Shown here: piece after piece, positions 10,636 through 24,666 of the stretch | Position numbering within the stretch: position 1 is the first letter of the stretch | Layout of the letters: the number at the start of each line of letters is the position of its first letter | Source: a virus | Strand: one strand, 5' to 3' | Length of the DNA stretch: 31,750 nt | IMG/VR virus record: IMGVR_UViG_3300021957_000170 | Location: 1-31,750 of that record | Program-made: the position numbers and the translations under genes | Notes under the pieces: model-generated | Seen by the model: the letters and a program-made list of their open reading frames with translations, nothing else | What the model was told of the DNA's origin: nothing | Databases searched by the model: none

Positions 10636-10999
10636 CCCATTAGTATCAACTCCATCGCTGTGCGCTTATTGTGGCGCACCAGCGAAAGGTTTTATCTATG
10701 GCGGTAACGACAAATGGTTTGGAGCGTGTAGTATGGCCCATCTAAAGAAAGTGCGCGAGGGTGAGAGACTCAAGAATGTTGCACAGATGAGTAACGAAGG
10801 TTTAGACTACGCAATCAAGCAAACCAAAGAGACCTATTTAGAGATAGCAAAAGACACAGGTTCTTATGTTATGCACGAATGGGGCAGAGAAAAGAGAGAG
10901 TTGCTTTTTGGAAAAGTAATAAGGGAATACCTGAATTGGGCCAATGAACAAGCCGAGACAGGAAAATTAGAGAGAACAATTAGAGATGGATCTAACTAA
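10616..10999 (+). CDS. Putative zinc-binding protein, unknown function
   Basis: This 127-residue protein probably starts at GTG 10616, within the SSB tail; the reading frame has no earlier ATG after the SSB body and the Cys-rich start would be lost at the ATG of residue 39. Near the N-terminus is CAYC (16-19), then CSMAH (about 38-42), a C-x2-C...C-x3-H zinc-site pattern. The remainder is charged and helical (KQTKETYLEIAKDTGSY, then a basic HEWGREKRELLFGKVIREYL). It overlaps the primase-helicase gene by 14 bases, so a replication-associated job is likely but unproven. Confidence 0.6.
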   Translation: MTRSLFNPLVSTPSLCAYCGAPAKGFIYGGNDKWFGACSMAHLKKVREGERLKNVAQMSNEGLDYAIKQTKETYLEIAKDTGSYVMHEWGREKRELLFGKVIREYLNWANEQAETGKLERTIRDGSN

Positions 11000-12830
11000 A
11001 TTTTATGGAGAGAAAGGATTAGTCATTGATAAGAATTTTACTTTTGCCGTACAAGGCAACAGTACAGATGATTTAATGCGAGAGATGAACAATCAAGGTT
11101 TGGTTGTTAATCACCTAGACACCGCAGGTGTCGTAACCAGAGTCCCCGTTCGTGGGATACCTGGCGTTAAACCAGACATGGGAAATCAACGCTCTGGTTG
11201 GTATGTATGCAATGAGCTATCTGGTAATTACTTTGCCACCTATGGCAACTGGCGTACCGGGGAACAGCACAAGTGGTCAAGCATCAACACCAATGAGCTA
11301 ACACCCATTGATCGCAAGGCACTACAAAAACAAATGGATGAAGCTGTTAAGAGGGCCAATGAAGCGAAGCAAATTAGGCACAACGAAGTAGCTGTAGAAG
11401 TTCAAGAAAGGTATAAGAAATGTCAGCCTGTGATATCGCATGAATATCTAAAAAGTAAAAATGTAAAAAGTTATGGTTTGAAACAAATGAACGAGAGTTT
11501 AATTGTTCCTGTCTACTCACCTGCGTCTGGTGAGCTGCGTAGTTTACAGTACATCGACAAGAAGGGGCAGAAAAGATTTGTTTCTGCAAGTGAAATCAAA
11601 GGAAATATTTTTTTAATTGGTTGTGATTTCACAACATTAGCTACCCAAGAATCTTTGGTTGTGGTAGAGGGCTACTCCACCGCAGCGACAGTTTTTGAAT
11701 CTACGAATATACCAACAGTTTGCGTATTTTCAGCGAACTTTACCCTGGATGCTGTGACCAATTTACGCAAGGTTTCTCAGGCTCGTTTATACATAGCCCT
11801 AGATAATGATGAGAATGGCGTGGGCGAGAGGAAAGCTAAAGAGGTAGCATCTGCTATTACTAATACTTTCGTGCGCATACCGAGCGCGAGAGGAGACTTT
11901 AACGATATGGCCCAAGAACATGGGTTAGACCGGGTTAAATACGAAATACTCAATCTGGGTTTAGGCATCACGCAGCACACTATTCGCGCCATGGTAAAAG
12001 AACCACCACCGAAAGAATGGTTGGTGGAAAACCTATTAGAGAAATCAAAGCCAGCACTCCTGGCATCTATTGGGGGCGTGGGAAAATCTATGATGGCGTT
12101 AGATCTTGCAATCAAGATTAGCCAGGGACATGGCAATTGGTTTGACCATGCTATTACCAAAAGTGGCAATGCAGTCATCATTAGCGCAGAGGATGACTTG
12201 GTAGAAATACACAGACGAATCGGTGCGTTAGATCCTGACAACAAACGATTCAATGCACCCTACGATGTCTACACTTACACGATACCAGATCAACCTAAAC
12301 CATTGACTCTGATTAATGATACCTCTGCTGGTATGGGCCTAACTGAACAAGCGCAGGAGCTGTTAGCAGAACTAGAAACCATACCAAACTTAGAGTTAGT
12401 GGTGATTGACCCCATACAAGCTGTGTGTGGATCTGCAAAGATTAGCAGCGATAACGAAGCCGGGCAGATGTATGGTCAGTTAGCTGCATCAATCTCCAGT
12501 AAGTTTAAGACCACCTGTTTAAGTATTCACCACATGAGCAAAGGCGCGTTAGCAACAGACGATGACCCTATGAGCGTTAGAAGCAAAATAAGGGGCGCAA
12601 GTTCATTGGTCGATAGTCACAGATGTGTACTAGCTCTGTGGCTGGGCGAGGAAGAAGAAGCCGAGCGCATCTGTCTGGACAACAAGGTTGAGTTTGACAG
12701 ATTAAGAGTAGTCAAGGGCGCGGTGGTGAAATCAAACAGCAGTGAGGTTGATACTAAGACTAAGACATTGTTTAGAAAAGGCGCGGTGTTAGAGCCGTAT
12801 AAAGAAACGTATAACTTTGGAGATTTTTAA
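10986..12830 (+). CDS. Toprim primase fused to RepA-type hexameric helicase
   Basis: This 614-residue bifunctional replication protein has an N-terminal region with GNWRTGEQHKW (87-97), seen in TraC-like primases. The Toprim domain follows: VVVEGYST with Glu228, then ALDNDENG with Asp273 and Asp275, the metal-binding acids of primer synthesis. The C-terminal half is an AAA_25/RepA-like ATPase with Walker A ASIGGVGKS (360-368), SAEDD at 400-404, Walker B LVVIDP (471-476) and the sensor-like CLSIHH (511-516). It would unwind DNA and make primers at the phage fork. It is the central replication enzyme here, as no DNA polymerase gene is present. Its stop TAA overlaps the next ATG by one base. Confidence 0.9.
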   Translation: MDLTKFYGEKGLVIDKNFTFAVQGNSTDDLMREMNNQGLVVNHLDTAGVVTRVPVRGIPGVKPDMGNQRSGWYVCNELSGNYFATYGNWRTGEQHKWSSINTNELTPIDRKALQKQMDEAVKRANEAKQIRHNEVAVEVQERYKKCQPVISHEYLKSKNVKSYGLKQMNESLIVPVYSPASGELRSLQYIDKKGQKRFVSASEIKGNIFLIGCDFTTLATQESLVVVEGYSTAATVFESTNIPTVCVFSANFTLDAVTNLRKVSQARLYIALDNDENGVGERKAKEVASAITNTFVRIPSARGDFNDMAQEHGLDRVKYEILNLGLGITQHTIRAMVKEPPPKEWLVENLLEKSKPALLASIGGVGKSMMALDLAIKISQGHGNWFDHAITKSGNAVIISAEDDLVEIHRRIGALDPDNKRFNAPYDVYTYTIPDQPKPLTLINDTSAGMGLTEQAQELLAELETIPNLELVVIDPIQAVCGSAKISSDNEAGQMYGQLAASISSKFKTTCLSIHHMSKGALATDDDPMSVRSKIRGASSLVDSHRCVLALWLGEEEEAERICLDNKVEFDRLRVVKGAVVKSNSSEVDTKTKTLFRKGAVLEPYKETYNFGDF

Positions 12831-13765
12831 TGAGTATAGAAATATTACAAGGCGATTGTATTGAATCGTTAAATAAACTAGAAGATCAATCTATTAATAC
12901 CTGTATAACAAGCCCACCTTATTGGGGATTGCGTGATTATGGTGTTGATGGTCAGTTGGGATTAGAAGAGACAGCAGAAGAATTCATCGATGGCATGGTT
13001 AATGTTTTTGCAGAAGTCAAACGAGTTTTGCGAGACGATGGAACTCTTTGGCTTAACATGGGTGATAGCTATGCAATGAGCAGCATAAGAGGTAAAGACT
13101 CAAAGTTTTCTGGTCATTTAGGATCTATGAAGCATTGGGGAAAAGAAGGCTCAATTAGATTAGGAAAAAGAAATTTACCATTTAATTTGAAGCCTAAAAA
13201 TCTTATTGGTATGCCCTGGAGACTTGCTTTAGCTTTACAGGCTGATGGTTGGTATTTACGCCAAGATATTATTTGGCATAAGCCTAACCCAATGCCAGAG
13301 AGTGTGAGGGATAGATGCACTAAATCTCACGAGTATATTTTTTTATTAAGTAAGAAAGCTAAATACTATTACGACCATGAAGCTATTAAAGAGGATGCTA
13401 AGTATCCGCAAGGGCCTAACTCACCCCAAAGTATTAAGAAAGGTCAAGGTCAGTTCGGTATGGACACAAGAGGTGGTTTACATAAGATTGGCGCAAATCT
13501 TAAAAAGAATAAAAGATCTGTTTGGAAGGTTTCAACTAAACCATTTAAAGGCGCACACTTTGCCACCTTCCCCAAAGATTTAATAGAACCATGCGTATTG
13601 GCTGGTTGTCCTGAAGGCGGAACAGTTCTTGATCCCTTCGGTGGTTCTGGAACAACAGGTATTGTTGCAGCACAACACAGTAGAAATGCAGTTCTATTGG
13701 AGCTGAACCAAGAATACATAGATTTAGCTAAAGAAAGAATTAAAAAGGAGATAGGAAATGATTAA
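12830..13765 (+). CDS. DNA N4-cytosine/N6-adenine methyltransferase
   Basis: This 311-residue methylase has the order of the beta group: motif IV TSPPYWGLRDYG (27-38) near the N-terminus and motif I DPFGGSGTTG (268-277) followed by NAVLLELNQEYIDLAKERI near the C-terminus. A variable target-recognition part lies in between. SPPY is typical of N4-cytosine methylases and also occurs in N6-adenine ones, so the base cannot be fixed. No cognate nuclease is present. Together with the C5 methylase, the phage may mark its DNA with two chemistries. It overlaps the primase-helicase stop by one base, so it is made with the replication genes. Confidence 0.9.
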   Translation: MSIEILQGDCIESLNKLEDQSINTCITSPPYWGLRDYGVDGQLGLEETAEEFIDGMVNVFAEVKRVLRDDGTLWLNMGDSYAMSSIRGKDSKFSGHLGSMKHWGKEGSIRLGKRNLPFNLKPKNLIGMPWRLALALQADGWYLRQDIIWHKPNPMPESVRDRCTKSHEYIFLLSKKAKYYYDHEAIKEDAKYPQGPNSPQSIKKGQGQFGMDTRGGLHKIGANLKKNKRSVWKVSTKPFKGAHFATFPKDLIEPCVLAGCPEGGTVLDPFGGSGTTGIVAAQHSRNAVLLELNQEYIDLAKERIKKEIGND

Positions 13766-13838
13766 TTACCCATGCGGATGGTTTGACGAAGAACAATTAC
13801 CAATACACCAGGAGGTGCAAAATGCCAATGAAGTATAA
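13758..13838 (+). CDS. 26-residue mini-protein
   Basis: The frame from ATG 13758 has a strong AAGGAG site eight bases upstream and overlaps the methylase stop (ATGATTAA). It encodes 26 residues: MINYPCGWFDEEQLP followed by IHQEVQNANEV. Its end overlaps the next gene, whose AGGAGGT ribosome site lies within it. It may be a real small acidic peptide or a leader that delivers ribosomes to the next start. No family is recognised. Confidence 0.45.
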   Translation: MINYPCGWFDEEQLPIHQEVQNANEV

Positions 13839-14028
13839 GAAAAGCCAAAAGACCAGAGATAAGAACACAGGTAAAACAGTTACCGAGCATTTTTATGTCA
13901 AGCAGTTAATGAACAGCCAGTTAAAAGATTTGCTGGTATCAGCAGCAACTAAACCAAAAGTTAAACTTAAAATTCTCAATGAGATTGTTAGGCGCAAACT
14001 CAATGGCATTAATACGAGGGTGAACTAA
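13822..14028 (+). CDS. Small basic hypothetical protein
   Basis: This 68-residue protein starts at ATG 13822, which has a near-perfect AGGAGGT site (13810-13816) six bases upstream. The earlier in-frame start at 13783 lacks one. It is lysine- and arginine-rich (MPMKYKKSQKTRDKNTGK), then has a helix MNSQLKDLLVSAATKPKVKLKILNEIVRRK. Such composition suggests nucleic-acid binding, but no known fold is seen. Its TAA overlaps the next ATG by one base. Confidence 0.7.
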   Translation: MPMKYKKSQKTRDKNTGKTVTEHFYVKQLMNSQLKDLLVSAATKPKVKLKILNEIVRRKLNGINTRVN

Positions 14029-14168
14029 TGAGCGGTAAAGGCGATAAACCCCGGGACTTGATATACACCCAAGAGTATCGAGATAACTTCGATAAGATCT
14101 TTGGCAAAAAGAAGAAACCAGCAAACAAGGAGAAGAAGGATGGCCCTAAAGATACTAGCAAGCGATAA
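14028..14168 (+). CDS. Small phage protein of the GKGD..R...Y..N(W/F)D.IFGK type
   Basis: This 46-residue protein starts at ATG 14028, overlapping the previous TAA. It has the recurrent phage pattern SGKGDKPRDLIYTQEYRDNF followed by DKIFGKKKK and a Lys-rich tail. Very similar short proteins occur in many phages of proteobacteria, by my recollection, always without known function. The conserved GKGD/PR start and D-x-IF-GK end argue that it is a real gene despite its length. Its last 29 bases overlap the next gene. Confidence 0.7.
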   Translation: MSGKGDKPRDLIYTQEYRDNFDKIFGKKKKPANKEKKDGPKDTSKR

Positions 14169-14319
14169 AGAAAAACAGCTCTTGATTGATGCATTAGCCG
14201 ACAAAGGTAAACCCTTAGTCGAGAAAGAAAAGAAACAGAAACTTACCAAAGAAGAGCAACGAACCATGGCATCTATTTCTAATTTAATATCGCAAATTGC
14301 CTTTGGCAACGATAAGTAA
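14140..14319 (+). CDS. Small charged hypothetical protein
   Basis: This 59-residue protein starts at ATG 14140 with AAGGAGAAGAAGG just upstream; the TTG start at 14101 is less likely. The sequence is a charged helix pair (ILASDKEKQLLIDALADKGK, then EKKQKLTKEEQRTMASISNL) ending in a hydrophobic SNLISQIAFG. It could be a small DNA-binding or adaptor protein, but is not recognised. Its stop codon lies at the edge of the iteron array, so it is the last gene of the replication block. Confidence 0.65.
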   Translation: MALKILASDKEKQLLIDALADKGKPLVEKEKKQKLTKEEQRTMASISNLISQIAFGNDK

Positions 14320-14403
14320 CTATAGTAAAAATGTCACACAACTATAGTAAATATGTCCCAAACTATAGTAAATATGGGACACAACCATAGTAAGACTTAC
14401 TAT
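14318..14403 (+). repeat. Iteron-like array upstream of the initiator gene
   Basis: AACTATAGTA occurs at 14318, 14340 and 14361, with AACCATAGTA at 14383; spacings are 22, 21 and 22 bases, two DNA turns, so bound proteins would line up on one face. Each exact copy contains the perfect palindrome ACTATAGT and is followed by AAAATGTC or AAATATG. TGTCCCA (14354-14360) and TGGGACA (14375-14381) form an inverted pair around the third copy. ATAGTAAG-A-CTTACTAT (14387-14403) adds a fifth, inverted element. This is the architecture of a replication origin or multi-operator control region. Confidence 0.75.
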
Positions 14404-14415
14404 AATATCCATAAC

Positions 14416-14429
14416 ATAACATATGTTAT
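14416..14429 (+). promoter_or_regulatory. 14-base perfect palindrome and small hairpin before initiator gene
   Basis: ATAACATATGTTAT (14416-14429) is a perfect palindrome, a likely dimer-binding operator. Ten bases on, AATGCC-TTTG-GGCATT (14439-14454) can form a six-base-pair hairpin in the leader of the gene starting at 14477. Together with the iterons they form a 137-base control region between the replication block and the initiator gene. Confidence 0.5.
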
Positions 14430-14476
14430 AGGTGGTGAAATGCCTTTGGGCATTTACACCCCCAAAGAGAGAGAGT

Positions 14477-14920
14477 ATGAGAAGAAAAAACGAACACGAT
14501 AAATACTGGTGGCTAGTGCCAACCGAAGTTGATAATGGGCGCGAGAGTGGACTAGTTCCACTCTCACTCGCGCGGTCGAGCAAAGACTTCTCTAAGCTGC
14601 GTAATATCGTTTGGAAGTGGTATCGCTGGGAAGTAGCAAGTCGCACTGATCTGAGCGCGAGCGCGAAACTATTTGGGTGGTCACTGGTTGAGCGTTGGCG
14701 TTACGAGACGTTCAGCTCACACGATGCGTTGAACTACTATACCCAGATGATAGGACTCAATAGAAAAACCTGTGGGCGGGCGTTGCAGGAGTTGAGCGAT
14801 GCTAATCTAGTGTGGATCGTACTAGAGGATGAGAAGAAGCGATTAAAGAAAAGCCAGGCGCGAGGGCGGAAACATTTTCTGTTGGTGGGCCTAGGTCACT
14901 ATTTAGGGGAAGGAGAGTAG
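14477..14920 (+). CDS. Winged-helix replication initiator or repressor-like protein
   Basis: This 147-residue protein starts at ATG 14477, six to seven bases after AGAGAGAG; a GTG at 14432 in frame would put the leader hairpin into coding sequence and is less likely. Residues about 60-115 form a winged-helix domain of the HTH_36 kind: LSASAKLFGWSLVERWRYET, then SHDALNYYTQMIGLNRKTCG and RALQELSDANLVWIV, the pattern of helix-turn-helix plus wing. The tail is basic (KKRLKKSQARGRKH). Such domains are found in phage replication initiators and in regulators. The iterons directly upstream make it the obvious ligand. It may start replication, repress itself, or both. Composition is GCGC-rich. Confidence 0.65.
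   Translation: MRRKNEHDKYWWLVPTEVDNGRESGLVPLSLARSSKDFSKLRNIVWKWYRWEVASRTDLSASAKLFGWSLVERWRYETFSSHDALNYYTQMIGLNRKTCGRALQELSDANLVWIVLEDEKKRLKKSQARGRKHFLLVGLGHYLGEGE
14539..14573 (+). repeat. Large imperfect inverted repeat inside initiator gene
   Basis: GAGAGTGGA (14543-14551) and TCCACTCTC (14557-14565) form a nine-base-pair stem with a five-base CTAGT loop. The flanking GCGCGAG (14539-14545) and CTCGCGC (14567-14573) are also complementary, so a longer bulged stem can form. It lies at codons about 21-33 of the initiator gene, 150 bases after the iterons. It could be an origin structure, an operator or an mRNA hairpin that limits translation. Confidence 0.5.
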
Positions 14921-14943: not shown

Positions 14944-15129
14944 TTATGCGATAACTTTTCCGTCTTTCATTACCTTCCCCATCTTATGTCCGTTGAAGGA
15001 TATTAAGAGCCAATTGCCCTCGCTGTCTTGTTGTGAGTGTTTCCTGCTTGGGTATTCAATGTCACCTGTAAGTCCGTAAACTGTTTTCATGTGCGTTGCG
15101 TATTTGTATTCTGCTATTTCGTAAGTCAT
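14944..15129 (-). CDS. Small hypothetical protein, paralogue of the 15339-15527 product
   Basis: This 61-residue protein is read from ATG 15129, with GGGAGA seven bases upstream, the start overlapping the stop of the 33-residue gene (TAATG). The C-terminal half shows YPSRKH, then NWLLISFNGHKMGKV; the 62-residue protein of 15339-15527 has IPSMTH then YWLLTYPCGKIVKTY at the same spacing, so both probably derive from a duplication. The fold is likely a small beta sheet. No function is known. It is the last gene of the minus-strand cluster and converges on the initiator gene. Confidence 0.65.
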   Translation of the reverse strand: MTYEIAEYKYATHMKTVYGLTGDIEYPSRKHSQQDSEGNWLLISFNGHKMGKVMKDGKVIA

Positions 15130-15230
15130 TACATATTCTCCCAATAGTTAGCGACTAACCATAGTATGAAAATTATGATTAGCCATATTAAAAAACCAAT
15201 ACCAAATATTTGCCCTATTATCTCAATCAT
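15129..15230 (-). CDS. 33-residue single-span membrane peptide
   Basis: From ATG 15230 the frame encodes MIEIIGQIFGIGFLIWLIII followed by FILWLVANYWENM. Nearly the whole peptide is one hydrophobic helix of about 24 residues, with a charged residue near each end. Its start lies in the last codons of the zinc-finger gene and its stop shares a base with the next start (TAATG). These couplings at both ends and the clean membrane profile argue for a real gene. It could be a membrane-active toxin-like peptide, a small holin-like or superinfection-exclusion protein. Confidence 0.6.
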   Translation of the reverse strand: MIEIIGQIFGIGFLIWLIIIFILWLVANYWENM

Positions 15231-15342
15231 AGCCTGAACCCATGCAATCGGTACAATGTTCTCCGTCTGGTAATGATCCTACGCCTTTGCAGTTAGGACA
15301 CTTACCCATGTAGGATCTAACCCATTTTTTTATCTTGCTCAT
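15223..15342 (-). CDS. 39-residue DnaJ-type zinc-finger mini-protein
   Basis: From ATG 15342 the frame encodes 39 residues: a basic start MSKIKKWVRSYMGK, then CPNCKGVGSLPDGEHCTDCM and GSGYD. This has two CxxCxGxG-like knuckles (C15-x2-C18-x-G-x-G and C30-x2-C33-x-G-x-G), the zinc-binding pattern of the DnaJ/Hsp40 central domain, without any J domain. ATG overlaps the upstream TGA (ATGA), and AGGAG lies eight bases upstream. It is well supported as a gene and could bind unfolded protein or host factors. Confidence 0.7.
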   Translation of the reverse strand: MSKIKKWVRSYMGKCPNCKGVGSLPDGEHCTDCMGSGYD

Positions 15343-15527
15343 GTGTATGACTCCTGGACAACTACATCGTTCTTGCGCTTGTCCTCGTAGGTTTTAACAA
15401 TCTTTCCGCATGGATAGGTTAAGAGCCAATAATCCTTTTTCATATCGTGTGTCATGCTTGGTATGTTTTCTTTTTTTGTGCTGAGTAACATCCTTGCCTC
15501 ATCAATCATTTCTTTATGCTGCGTCAT
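15339..15527 (-). CDS. Small hypothetical protein, paralogue of the 14944-15129 product
   Basis: This 62-residue protein starts at ATG 15527, directly after the TAA of the previous gene, whose final codons AAC-AAG-GAG supply the ribosome site. The N-terminal helix MTQHKEMIDEARMLLSTKK is followed by IPSMTHDMKKDYWLLTYPCG, sharing P-S-x-x-H and W-L-L-x4-G/C-K with the 61-residue protein encoded two genes further along. No function is known. Its TGA overlaps the next ATG. Confidence 0.65.
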   Translation of the reverse strand: MTQHKEMIDEARMLLSTKKENIPSMTHDMKKDYWLLTYPCGKIVKTYEDKRKNDVVVQESYT

Positions 15528-15743
15528 TTATAACTCCTTGTTTTTGTAGCTTGTTAATATAGATTTGTTTTTGTTAATAATATCCTGGAACTGTTTAGCA
15601 CTGATTCCAAGCTCGGTTAATACATCAAGGGCCTTGGGATTAATCAAGGCATTGAAGTGTGGGTGTGTAAAGATCTTATTGATCGACTCGTGTTCTTGTC
15701 GATTGATCTTTGGTTTTCTAAAGTTGTATCTGGTAACTGACAT
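15528..15743 (-). CDS. Small basic hypothetical protein
   Basis: This 71-residue protein starts at ATG 15743, sharing a base with the upstream TAA (TAATG), with GGGAGA before it. It has a basic N-terminus (TRYNFRKPKINRQEHES), a middle with KALDVLTELGISAKQFQD, whose LTELGIS-x-x-Q-F pattern resembles a helix-turn-helix, and ends in KNKSILTSYKNKEL. A DNA-binding role is possible but uncertain. It is coupled on both sides within the minus-strand cluster. Confidence 0.6.
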   Translation of the reverse strand: MSVTRYNFRKPKINRQEHESINKIFTHPHFNALINPKALDVLTELGISAKQFQDIINKNKSILTSYKNKEL

Positions 15744-16000
15744 TACGCTATCTCCCTTTTGTTTTTCTTGTGTAGTTTATAAAGATCCTTTTGTCGTTGA
15801 ATATCTTCTTGCATATCTTCCCAAATCTCGTTCTTAACTTCTTGCTTAACATCAGCATCAAGTTTGGTAACGATCTCAAAGTCAGATTTGTTTGGTGTCC
15901 ACCATTGGTGATTCACTGATTTGTATGCAGGTGATACTTCACCTTCAGTTTTCCATTGCCACTGAATAACACCATGTTCGGTTTTACTATATAGATACAT
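15743..16000 (-). CDS. Hypothetical protein, Trp-rich N-terminus and charged coiled-coil tail
   Basis: This 85-residue protein starts at ATG 16000, sharing a base with the upstream TAA and preceded by AGAGGT. The first half has several tryptophans (VIQWQWKTEGEV, then VNHQWWTPNKSD), suggesting a small beta domain. The second half is a highly charged helix (VKQEVKNEIWEDMQEDIQRQ, KDLYKLHKKNKRE) able to form a coiled coil. No known family is recognised. The reading frame extends to 16048, but the nearer start fits the gene overlap pattern of this cluster. Confidence 0.65.
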   Translation of the reverse strand: MYLYSKTEHGVIQWQWKTEGEVSPAYKSVNHQWWTPNKSDFEIVTKLDADVKQEVKNEIWEDMQEDIQRQKDLYKLHKKNKREIA

Positions 16001-16170
16001 TACGCTACCTCTACTTCTACTTCTGAGCGATCTTCTAAATGTTGCCATTCAAACTCATTCTCGCAAGCCTGGTCTTCTGCAGCTTCCCAATTATCAGCTT
16101 CAATATAGACCTCTTCTCTGATAATGGTTGTTCTAATAACTCTAAACTCTGTTAATGTGTCCGCGCTCAT
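16000..16170 (-). CDS. 56-residue acidic hypothetical protein
   Basis: From ATG 16170 the frame encodes 56 residues, MSADTLTEFRVIRTTIIREE, then VYIEADNWEAAEDQACENEF and an acidic end EDRSEVEVEVA. The pattern FRVIRTTIIREEVYIEADNWEEA is that of a short beta hairpin plus helix seen in small phage proteins. The start shares a base with the previous TAA, and the stop shares one with the next ATG. Strong negative charge could indicate a DNA-mimic or protein-inhibitor role; that is speculation. Confidence 0.6.
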   Translation of the reverse strand: MSADTLTEFRVIRTTIIREEVYIEADNWEAAEDQACENEFEWQHLEDRSEVEVEVA

Positions 16171-16454
16171 TACAGCACCTCCTTTTGTTTGGTAAAGGTT
16201 AAAGTTCCGCTAGGGTCTGAATATGTAAGCGTTGCATCATCTTTAAGAAAATGTAACTGGGCAATAAATTCATCATCTAAACCCCAATCATCCGAGTTGA
16301 TGAGCGTATAGAGAGAAACCTTTTCTTTTGGTACTTCTCCATAACCATCAACCCAATTAACTAGGTATATCTTGCGCTCTAGCTTAATTCTTTGTTTAAG
16401 TTCTTTAGCGTTTCCGTAAAAGCGTTTATTTCTAAAGTTAGTAATGATATTCAT
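16170..16454 (-). CDS. Hypothetical protein
   Basis: This 94-residue protein is read from ATG 16454, which shares a base with the TAA of the 45-residue membrane peptide gene upstream. The frame is open to 16493, but that start ignores the overlap. The sequence begins basic (NIITNFRNKRFYGNAKELKQ RIKLERK), then has beta-like segments (IYLVNWVDGYGEV, VSLYTLINSDDWGLDDEF, DATLTYSDPSGTLTFTKQ). No known domain is recognised. The mixed alpha/beta size is typical of phage early host-interaction proteins. Confidence 0.65.
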   Translation of the reverse strand: MNIITNFRNKRFYGNAKELKQRIKLERKIYLVNWVDGYGEVPKEKVSLYTLINSDDWGLDDEFIAQLHFLKDDATLTYSDPSGTLTFTKQKEVL

Positions 16455-16591
16455 TAGACCACCCACGATATGAGAGTTAACAAGGACACACAAAAGAATA
16501 TAATAATTATGTTCTCGGTGATTCTCCGCGCTTGGTCAGTCCATGGTTTTGGTTGTTGTGGTTTATGCAGTTTGTTTGCAAAGTCTTTCAT
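16454..16591 (-). CDS. 45-residue C-terminally anchored membrane protein
   Basis: From ATG 16591 the frame encodes MKDFANKLHKPQQPKPWTDQ, a basic proline-rich cytoplasmic part, then ARRITENIIIIFFCVSLLTL and ISWVV, a single membrane helix at residues about 27-45. AGGAGAG lies six bases upstream, a good ribosome site. The TAA overlaps the next ATG. The tail-anchor topology, with a soluble N-terminus, is unusual for a holin and suits a membrane-tethered regulator or exclusion factor. It is too short for common gene finders. Confidence 0.6.
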   Translation of the reverse strand: MKDFANKLHKPQQPKPWTDQARRITENIIIIFFCVSLLTLISWVV

Positions 16592-16621
16592 TTATCTCTC
16601 CTATAAAATGAGTTGGTTATA

Positions 16622-16654
16622 CCACGAAAGCCGAGCATAAGACTCGGCTAGTGG
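16622..16654 (-). terminator. Hairpin after the first minus-strand gene (possible attenuator)
   Basis: AGCCGAG (16629-16635) and CTCGGCT (16643-16649) form a seven-base-pair GC-rich stem with a seven-base loop, and CCAC/GTGG (16622-16625 and 16651-16654) can extend it. On the minus strand the stem is followed by only TTTC, a weak U-tract. It lies between the stop at 16672 and the next start at 16591, and would partly separate the first gene from the rest of the cluster. Confidence 0.5.
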
Positions 16655-16671
16655 ATTGTGTATTTGTTTAA

Positions 16672-16914
16672 CTAAGCTGCATTCTTAATTGCCTGTTTTA
16701 AAAAGAATTTCCAAGAGGTAAAACCTTTATCTTTTTCCTTTTCAATTAAATCTGAAAAACCAATTTCTTTTGGTTTCCAAATTTTTAAAGCAAGGTCAAT
16801 ATAGATTTTGATTAAGTCATGGTTGCCACCTAAGTCATGAATAACTATTTCATGGTCACCTTTATCATTGATTAAGAACCTTGTTGCTTGGTCTATATGG
16901 TATGTATTTCTCAT
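16672..16914 (-). CDS. Hypothetical protein, first gene of minus-strand cluster
   Basis: This 80-residue protein starts at ATG 16914, with AGGAGAG seven bases upstream; the earlier in-frame ATG at 16956 falls inside the promoter. The sequence MRNTYHIDQATRFLINDKGD is followed by EIVIHDLGGNHDLIKIYIDL and a basic-acidic C-terminal part (EIGFSDLIEKEKDKGFTSWK, FFLKQAIKNAA). A mixed alpha/beta fold is likely. No known family is recognised. It is the gene closest to the extended -10 promoter and is set apart from the others by a hairpin. Confidence 0.65.
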   Translation of the reverse strand: MRNTYHIDQATRFLINDKGDHEIVIHDLGGNHDLIKIYIDLALKIWKPKEIGFSDLIEKEKDKGFTSWKFFLKQAIKNAA

Positions 16915-16958
16915 TCTATCTCTCCTTTTAAATGGTAGCTTTTCTTGGCTACACAATA

Positions 16959-17063: not shown

Positions 17064-17531
17064 ATGGAGAAGAAAGATTACAGTTACTTAATCGGTAAAG
17101 CTGGTCGTAAAAAGATTAAATTTAACGATGAAGACTTTGAAAACATTGAGAGATGGGCTGGTAATGGTTTGTCTGAAAAACAAATTGCAGAGCTGTTGAA
17201 CACATCAACTTCCACAATCTCTCGCAGAAAAAGAGAATTGGCACAATTTGATAACGCTTTAAAGAGAGGAAGAGCAAAAGCAATTGCTGCGGTGACAAAC
17301 GCGCTTTACACTTCAGCTCTCGATGGAAACACTACGGCCCAGATATTCTTTTTAAAGAACCGAAGCAGTGACTCCTGGATGGACAAAGCCGAGGTCAATC
17401 ACAACCTTAACCTTGCCGAGATCCTAGATACAGCAAAGAATCGTGTGATCGAGGGCAAAGTAGTAACTGAGCAGCTTGATTCACAGCGTGTCCTTTCAGA
17501 GGACGCGTTGCCAAACAAAAATACGGGCTAG
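17064..17531 (+). CDS. terS: Terminase small subunit
   Basis: This 155-residue protein recognises phage DNA and brings it to the large subunit. An N-terminal helix-turn-helix at about 37-57 (LSEKQIAELLNTSTSTISRR) is the DNA-binding domain. Then comes the oligomerisation helix region (RGRAKAIAAVTNALYTSALDG) and the phrase NTTAQIFFLKNRSSDSWMDK, the T-A-x-x-FFLK-x-R...W motif of TerS families in podoviruses and siphoviruses. There is no good Shine-Dalgarno sequence before ATG 17064. It is followed by a 162-base spacer and the large subunit. Confidence 0.88.
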   Translation: MEKKDYSYLIGKAGRKKIKFNDEDFENIERWAGNGLSEKQIAELLNTSTSTISRRKRELAQFDNALKRGRAKAIAAVTNALYTSALDGNTTAQIFFLKNRSSDSWMDKAEVNHNLNLAEILDTAKNRVIEGKVVTEQLDSQRVLSEDALPNKNTG

Positions 17532-23703: not shown

Positions 23704-24666
23704 ATGGCAATAGGAATACCAGGACAATCAAGGGCAGGGCCAGTGGCTACTGGTCAAGCATACGCACAAAGTATAGCTGGTGGTATGCCGATGGAACAAA
23801 TCATTGCGCCAGGCGTTAGTTATTCTCCAGAACAATCAGGTGGTTACACACAAAAAGATTTAGATTTTATTGCAAAAGGGCCAGCTCCAGTAATGCCTAT
23901 TGCACCTACGACTGGTGAGGTTGCAACCATACCAAATCAAATGCCTTATGCTCCCCCAGGCGTAACGCAACCAACTCCCTTTCCTGCTGTTGGTAATTTT
24001 GATTTTTTAACAGGCTTAGATTTTAGTAACTTGCCTGATTTTAGCGATATAGATTTTAGCAATATAGAGATAGACGCAGCACTTAAAGAATACTCTGATA
24101 GGATAGATGCTGGTGAACCAGAGCCGTTTGAAAGTTTCCTTACAGAACCTTATCAAGTACCAGTCATGCCACAAGCACCTGCTTACCAAGAGCCAGTAAA
24201 CTTTACTGCTGTTCCTCAAGCACCTATTCTTGCACCAGTAATGCCGAGTATGCCTGGAGAACCTGAGCCTATAGTCCAACCAATAGCCGCCCCAATATCT
24301 CCAGTACAAACATTGCCGCAAAATATTTTTGCAAACATACCACAACCAGTAATACCACAACCAGTAATACCACAACCAGTAATACCACAACCAGTAATAC
24401 CACAACCAGTAATTCAAAAACCTATTCCTCAAGAACCAATTGAATTACCATTCATACCTGATTTTTCAAATATACCTGATTTATCAAACATACCAATGAA
24501 CTTTACTGGTTTACCAAATATGCCAGTTATGCCTCAGATACCACAAACAACATACATACCCCCGGCATCGTCTTTTATACAACCTAGGGTAGAAGAAATA
24601 GTTTCTCCTATTAGCAGGGGTAGAACAAGACAGCTACCACAACCAGGTTTATTTAACTTAGTATAA
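23704..24666 (+). CDS. Proline-rich protein with tandem PVIPQ repeats
   Basis: This 320-residue protein is Pro-, Gln- and Ile-rich throughout. It begins with MAIGIPGQSRAGPVATGQ and ends in a basic RGRTRQLPQPGLFNLV. A middle section repeats FSNLPDFSDIDFSNIEID, and again PDFSNIPDLSNIPMNFTG near 252-270. At about 213-237 are five tandem copies of PQPVI. It has no membrane or catalytic motif; it may be an extended virion or assembly linker. It lies between lysis genes and the scaffold. The start overlaps nothing and follows a one-base gap. Confidence 0.65.
   Translation: MAIGIPGQSRAGPVATGQAYAQSIAGGMPMEQIIAPGVSYSPEQSGGYTQKDLDFIAKGPAPVMPIAPTTGEVATIPNQMPYAPPGVTQPTPFPAVGNFDFLTGLDFSNLPDFSDIDFSNIEIDAALKEYSDRIDAGEPEPFESFLTEPYQVPVMPQAPAYQEPVNFTAVPQAPILAPVMPSMPGEPEPIVQPIAAPISPVQTLPQNIFANIPQPVIPQPVIPQPVIPQPVIPQPVIQKPIPQEPIELPFIPDFSNIPDLSNIPMNFTGLPNMPVMPQIPQTTYIPPASSFIQPRVEEIVSPISRGRTRQLPQPGLFNLV
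24340..24414 (+). repeat. Five tandem 15-base repeats (PQPVI)
   Basis: Five direct copies of CCACAACCAGTAATA run from 24340 to 24414; the last base of the fifth differs. They encode repeats of P-Q-P-V-I. Exact identity at the DNA level shows recent expansion and makes the copy number likely to vary between relatives. Confidence 0.95.

Follow-up and report, generated by a model that had tools for sequence, protein, structure and literature searches.

Positions 14318-14463 of the window, i.e. of the whole analysed stretch of 31,750 nucleotides, probably contain a phage replication origin, and the adjoining gene at 14477-14920 (REP) probably encodes its initiator. Such an origin with its own initiator would be similar to those of RSF1010/IncQ plasmids or of lambda and is likely copied by a host polymerase. 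A replication origin was the best fit for this locus because phased repeats diverge together with the adjoining winged-helix gene and are accompanied by an AT-rich palindrome and a second hairpin held by pairing, while the phage encodes a RepA-type helicase and no phage polymerase was detected among the families searched.

The source record is an IMG/VR virus contig without end repeats, and the phage carrying the locus is uncultured and marine. In profile searches its portal and major capsid proteins matched PHROG head families. TerL of the window showed about 36% identity to epsilon15-type podoviruses and up to 49% to uncultured relatives. Furthermore, an integrase is encoded. The following features are discussed:

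10986-12830, plus strand: Toprim primase fused to an RSF1010-RepA-like (AAA_25) helicase, the proposed partner
14318-14404, plus strand: iteron array of four units with starts at 14318, 14340, 14361 and 14383, spacing of 22/21/22 bp and the core ACTATAGT
14354-14381, unstranded: inverted half-sites TGTCCCA (14354-14360) and TGGGACA (14375-14381) in neighbouring units
14387-14403, unstranded: inverted repeat ATAGTAAG-A-CTTACTAT, adjoining the ATATCC motif
14405-14412, plus strand: motif ATATCCAT at the junction of array and hairpins, an anchor present in the relatives compared
14411-14429, unstranded: SL1, an AT-rich hairpin with a perfect stem of 8 bp and a loop of 3 nt, which may act as unwinding element or form a cruciform
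14431-14463, unstranded: SL2, a GC-rich hairpin with a bulged base in the 3' arm, candidate single-strand initiation site or helicase-primase loading site
14477-14920, plus strand: REP, a winged-helix protein of 147 aa, proposed origin-binding initiator

The iteron array in the window and in related phages

Three exact copies of AACTATAGTA start at 14318, 14340 and 14361, and a fourth unit, AACCATAGTA, starts at 14383. The repeats reported in the original prediction at distances of 21-22 bases were thereby recovered, and both inverted repeats named there are present at the array. The array directly precedes the REP gene, and its start overlaps the stop codon of the upstream ORF (TAA, 14317-14319). 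Dinucleotide shuffling of the whole window, repeated 200 times, never produced a comparable triple of 10-mers (three exact copies within 60 bp, spacing of at least 15), which rules out chance repeats. Besides the array, the window contains just one such cluster, a tandem coding repeat of 15 bp (PQPVI units) at about 24337-24413 in the ORF 23704-24666. By lag autocorrelation over whole genomes the array ranked first in the window and in G001; elsewhere other stretches scored equally high. An extra copy of AACCATAGTA lies at 15157-15166 in the minus-strand gene block; chance expectation covers copies with one mismatch.

For REP, 20 close relatives were found in IMG/VR, and an alignment query yielded at least 114, of which the best 80 were retained. 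More distant relatives were reached via the DNA pattern ATATCC...ATAGGAG. Contigs found by this pattern that contain array and hairpins also have REP, with the exception of L164, whose stored stretch stops within SL2. Pattern matches without REP showed neither array nor palindrome. No REP homologue was detected among the phage isolates or in the GTDB genome contigs searched, and the search in plasmids gave nothing further than a single insignificant stretch (E=0.1). For the related Toprim-RepA phages 1N2-2, ct76p945, CGphi29 and PB15 a REP counterpart was not obvious from the annotations.

The same layout was identified in 93 viral loci: four units with a spacing of 21-22 bp, the invariant ATATCCAT, then SL1 and SL2, a variable spacer and finally REP. 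Among the loci compared, 82 distinct array-plus-hairpin sequences occur. When upstream regions were anchored at ATATCCAT, 68 distinct ones showed this layout, to which a fourth clade could be added. Conservation of the spacing in relatives had been named as a check of the original prediction, and the four units of 21-22 bp are indeed fixed. Mapping of the origin by skew, suggested there as well, gave no origin signal: in eight records, no clean switch at the array was seen for third-position GC or TA skew. The earlier description of the origin as an iteron array only turned out to be too narrow, as the hairpins are a constant part as well.

The sequence of the iteron unit depends on the REP clade, with ACTATAGT in clade A, GGGACATACTAGGGAA in clade B, CATAACTATAGTAAGTTCTAC in clade C and TGCGACAAAAATGGTA in clade D. 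Half-sites were found both ways round (TGTCCCA/TGGGACA, GTAAGTTCTAC/GTAGAACTTAC and ACCATAGT/ACTATGGT), and for any one unit the orientation of its half-site can differ from relative to relative. Symmetric recognition, e.g. by a dimer, would account for this tolerated flipping. Further loci from clades A, C and D also have an inverted repeat at the position of 14387-14403, and most of clade B lacks one. In L131 (5861 bp), one entire iteron unit (TGCGACAAAAATGGTACCTGCTT) of the array before ATATCC is inverted compared to the relatives.

The divergence of the array follows that of REP. Array and REP distances were correlated with a Mantel r of 0.91 (49-locus TerS set), and the partial Mantel correlation was 0.89 given TerS or TerL and 0.88 given the primase. 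TerS, TerL and primase added no explanation of array distance once REP was controlled. This supports REP as the reader of the array without proving it, since adjacency contributes to the correlation and could by itself lead to joint inheritance of the two. The same comparison bears on the reading of the repeats as a DNA packaging site (pac or cos) recognized by TerS. The terminase genes are located about 2.7 kb past the repeats, and cos sites contain repeats. However, given REP, the partial r of the array with TerS and TerL was only -0.09 and -0.13, and the same clade A array accompanies different TerS lineages. A packaging site is hence ruled out as the main reading, as array divergence tracks REP and not TerS, and a function of this kind is extremely improbable.

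In the 20 close loci the position of REP is constant, 3' of the Toprim/RepA primase-helicase where the contig reaches that far, and minus-strand small genes followed by TerS-TerL-portal are located downstream. The gene content between primase and REP is variable among relatives. The corresponding stretch from primase-helicase to array in the window (12830-14319) is hypervariable, with frequent DNA methyltransferases among the genes of the relatives, and looks like an insertion hotspot, since the array starts at the stop codon of whichever gene is upstream. A variable block of small minus-strand genes is also found between REP and TerS (14944-16956), several of them without detected match to window genes. 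For TerS itself (17064-17531), several diverged lineages exist, the most distant with 30-57% identity; TerL is nearly constant across them, and they do not depend on the type of array. Among the eight long or near-complete records, G002 and G003 carry end repeats (99 and 84 bp, respectively) and are therefore probably complete.

Two hairpins conserved in shape

The 14-base palindrome of the original prediction, ATAACATATGTTAT (14416-14429), is present, but is better described as part of a hairpin with an 8-bp stem and a 3-nt loop at 14411-14429 (ATAACATA-ACA-TATGTTAT, SL1). The second hairpin, SL2 (14431-14463), had been missed. For SL1, 16 different arm pairs were found, with Watson-Crick pairing throughout. 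Of 23 arm-loop combinations, 22 have a stem of 7-8 bp and one a stem of 6 bp; stems of at least 7 bp occurred in 0.7% of the shuffles used for comparison. L004 and L005 share an identical REP but differ in the SL1 stem, the change in one arm being matched in the other, and between L085 and L086 SL1 differs at six positions per arm. As the sequence of the palindrome varies, it represents no fixed operator here, unlike in iteron plasmids. The SL1 loops also vary freely in sequence. A rolling-circle nick site was ruled out on this ground and because REP showed no match to HUH or relaxase proteins.

For SL2, 31 distinct stems were counted in 53 segments. The folding program read a single-base bulge in the 3' arm in 41 of them (A in 36, G in 5), and the other 12 fold without a simple one-base bulge. 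With the loop-closing pair set aside, wobble pairs made up 8 of 688 cells (about 1%). For clade B, 11 sequences could be aligned cleanly; all cells of this alignment pair (100%) and six pairs change on both sides, whereas no pair with change on both sides was left when the partners were slid by 1 to 3 columns as control. Because one-pass MAFFT across clades breaks the palindromes, pairs were tallied for each sequence separately in Python and in this one clade alignment. Folded as single-stranded DNA, SL1 plus SL2 reached z values between -4.6 and -5.9 in each of the four sampled clades. The array's own single-strand fold was good in the sampled loci of clades A and C, weak in clade D and in L102, and none was found in clade B (z 0.14 and -0.75); thus, self-folding of the array is not the conserved feature.

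RNA helices hold more wobble pairs than the approx. 1% found in SL2. This favours a role of the hairpins at the DNA level, although it is suggestive only. The Rfam scan gave one match with 20.3 bits, compared to a gathering score of 50, and thus no structured RNA family.

The hairpins could nevertheless belong to an autoregulatory operator with a structured 5' leader, an explanation we consider unlikely. REP bound at four phased sites ahead of its promoter would then repress or activate its own expression, SL1 and SL2 would act in the mRNA leader on stability or translation, and replication would start elsewhere. The array is invariably located directly upstream of REP, the hairpins sit between array and start codon, and the predicted fold of REP resembles MarR-type regulators. 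Selection on secondary structure would also fit an mRNA leader, and the few wobble pairs of SL2 read as G-T on the plus strand. A promoter-like GGGACA-19-TATAAT of modest score (z about 1) with a weak -35 was found in the window and in some relatives of clade A; TATAAT falls at the place corresponding to 14401-14406. Across the clades, however, the sigma70 scan revealed no conserved promoter position. The best sites were located at 19 different offsets and were no better than those of shuffles (mean z -0.30, with sigma70 alone scanned). Depending on the locus, ATATCC and the start codon are separated by about 72 to 104 nt (75-107 nt with the start codon included), a variation that is odd for a leader controlling translation, and the wobble content is below the expectation for an RNA helix. 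Moreover, the upstream ORF ends at the array, so REP could be expressed by read-through without a promoter of its own, which also counts against an operator with leader. The self-repressing operator offered as alternative in the original prediction could coexist with an origin, as in many iteron plasmids.

REP and the replication proteins

For REP a single winged helix was predicted with moderate confidence (AlphaFold2; pLDDT 69, pTM 0.71). The HTH_36-type domain proposed earlier holds for the family, where it was the best Pfam family and matched 18 of the 23 aligned relatives (best E 1.3e-5); the window protein alone gave no Pfam match above the cut-off. A RepC model was absent from the Pfam and NCBIfam matches of the 23 REP members, and no Pfam match to Rep_3-type or RepA_N initiators was obtained for them. 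The proposed plasmid-like Rep was thus not supported, REP matching no plasmid Rep family in Pfam. The best, although weak, PHROG matches were phage replication-initiation families: the 'replication initiation protein' family phrog_270 was matched by 13 of the 23 members (best 3.2e-4), and the window REP itself reached 0.068 to phrog_19658. These weak matches may reflect the shared HTH only. A PDB profile search with REP gave nothing significant, and Foldseek listed generic winged helices including MarR-type regulators, all of them weak (E >= 0.02).

TubR was among these weak fold matches (4asn_A, E 0.14). A partition or centromere-like site in the style of TubR/ParR, at which a winged-helix binder on iterons upstream of its own gene would segregate a plasmid prophage, is nonetheless very unlikely. 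Sites of this kind typically have iterons ahead of the gene for the binding protein. In contrast, no partner NTPase was recognized next to REP, and hairpins conserved in shape would be unexpected. The integrase of the window makes an integrating rather than a plasmid prophage likely, which counts against partition as well.

The Toprim-RepA primase-helicase of the original prediction has Toprim and AAA_25 domains and a match to RSF1010 RepA. The AAA_25 match had an E value of 4.9e-32, and residues 333-416 matched RSF1010 RepA (1g8y, E 1.3e-8), the sole PDB sequence match. An AAA_25 helicase was present in all eight long or near-complete records. In these records no polymerase of family A, family B or PolIII-alpha was found, so the predicted lack of a DNA polymerase stood for these families; the search for DNA_pol_B_2, run without positive control, was also empty. 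The related phage DSL-LC05 (TerL 47.5%) encodes its own PolB and a primase/polymerase.

Comparison with known origins and proposed mechanism

Theta origins of the plasmid type are characterized by several direct repeats of 17-22 bp in helical phase beside the initiator gene. In iteron plasmids such as pSC101, R6K, pPS10 and RK2, iterons spaced by 21-22 bp are located directly upstream of rep, with inverted repeats between them and an AT-rich region. The locus described here shares the direct-repeat spacing of 21-22 bp, the helical phasing and the adjoining gene of a proposed initiator. Rep_3-type initiators contain two winged helices in 230-350 aa; REP, in contrast, has one winged helix in 147 aa and no Rep_3 match.

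In RSF1010, RepC binds to the iterons, RepA unwinds, hairpin ssi sites are primed by RepB' (PMC4234260) and the host polymerase extends (PMC4234260; PMC4538821). Phased iterons of about 20 bp, palindromic hairpins and an AT-rich segment are common to the RSF1010/IncQ oriV and the phage locus, and both systems have a RepA-type helicase and a dedicated protein for the iterons, in the phage the putative binder REP. They differ in that REP lacks a match to RepC, and the phage primase is a Toprim enzyme fused to the helicase, whereas IncQ has the separate AEP primase RepB'. Furthermore, the phage hairpins lie side by side between the iterons and the initiator gene, and the locus is part of a tailed phage. 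Membership in IncQ is not claimed, since RepC and RepB' are absent.

Lambda-type origins consist of four iterons and an AT-rich tract (PMC7466680). The origins of lambda and Stx phages with O protein resemble the present locus in the AT-rich tract beside the iterons (four in lambda) and in the phage-coded initiator, which here is proposed to be REP. However, the lambda iterons are located within the O gene, whereas in all relatives examined here the array precedes REP, and O recruits the host DnaB through P, whereas here a helicase-primase of the phage itself is available. For phage P4, alpha combines Toprim primase, helicase and winged-helix binding to repeats at ori (PMC4234260). The same three activities are predicted here, but one P4 protein does all three, while in the present phage the proposed initiator is separate from the primase-helicase and the helicase is RepA-like. 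The origin stem-loop of pRN1 is kept in structure and not in sequence (PMC4234260), comparable to hairpins conserved by shape rather than by letters; unlike the locus described here, pRN1 has one stem-loop of about 100 nt downstream of the rep gene, no iterons and an AEP primase.

The earlier proposal of an iteron origin with its own winged-helix initiator and dependence on a host polymerase gained comparative support from the layout in 93 loci, the co-divergence with REP, the compensatory changes in the hairpins, the unconserved sigma70 position and the RepA-like helicase. From these comparisons we infer that REP binds to the array, that the DNA is unwound and the hairpins are used for loading, and that replication starts at this locus. 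REP, probably as dimers, would occupy the four iterons; spaced by two helical turns, these sites point to the same side of the DNA. Binding would strain and open the adjoining AT-rich stretch of ATATCCAT and SL1. The exposed strands could then fold as SL1 and SL2 and, together with REP, load the Toprim primase/RepA-type helicase. Primers would be made by the phage primase and extended by a host DNA polymerase; extension by the host is proposed because phage polymerases of family A, family B and PolIII-alpha were not found. REP may additionally repress its own gene from the iteron sites.

More tentatively, the locus could represent a previously undescribed type of phage origin, in which phased iterons, read by a small initiator with a single winged helix, are joined to two DNA hairpins under selection for shape only. 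These hairpins would load the fused Toprim primase/RepA-type helicase with no need for a loader from the host. If true, tailed phages would possess an IncQ-like initiation machine whose iteron specificity diverges by lineage, while the hairpin landing pad remains constant in form. The comparison suggests RSF1010-type initiation in tailed phages and provides a prediction of origin and initiator at base-pair level for a large group of uncultured marine phages apparently without their own replicative polymerase. About 80 natural variants suggest a division into parts read by sequence (iterons, ATATCCAT) and parts read by shape only (SL1, SL2), which makes the proposed mechanism directly testable. 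Apart from this, ATATCCAT at 14405-14413, lacking the conserved C at position 8, resembles a DnaA box core (TTATCCACA, 7/9 identical positions with ATATCCATA).
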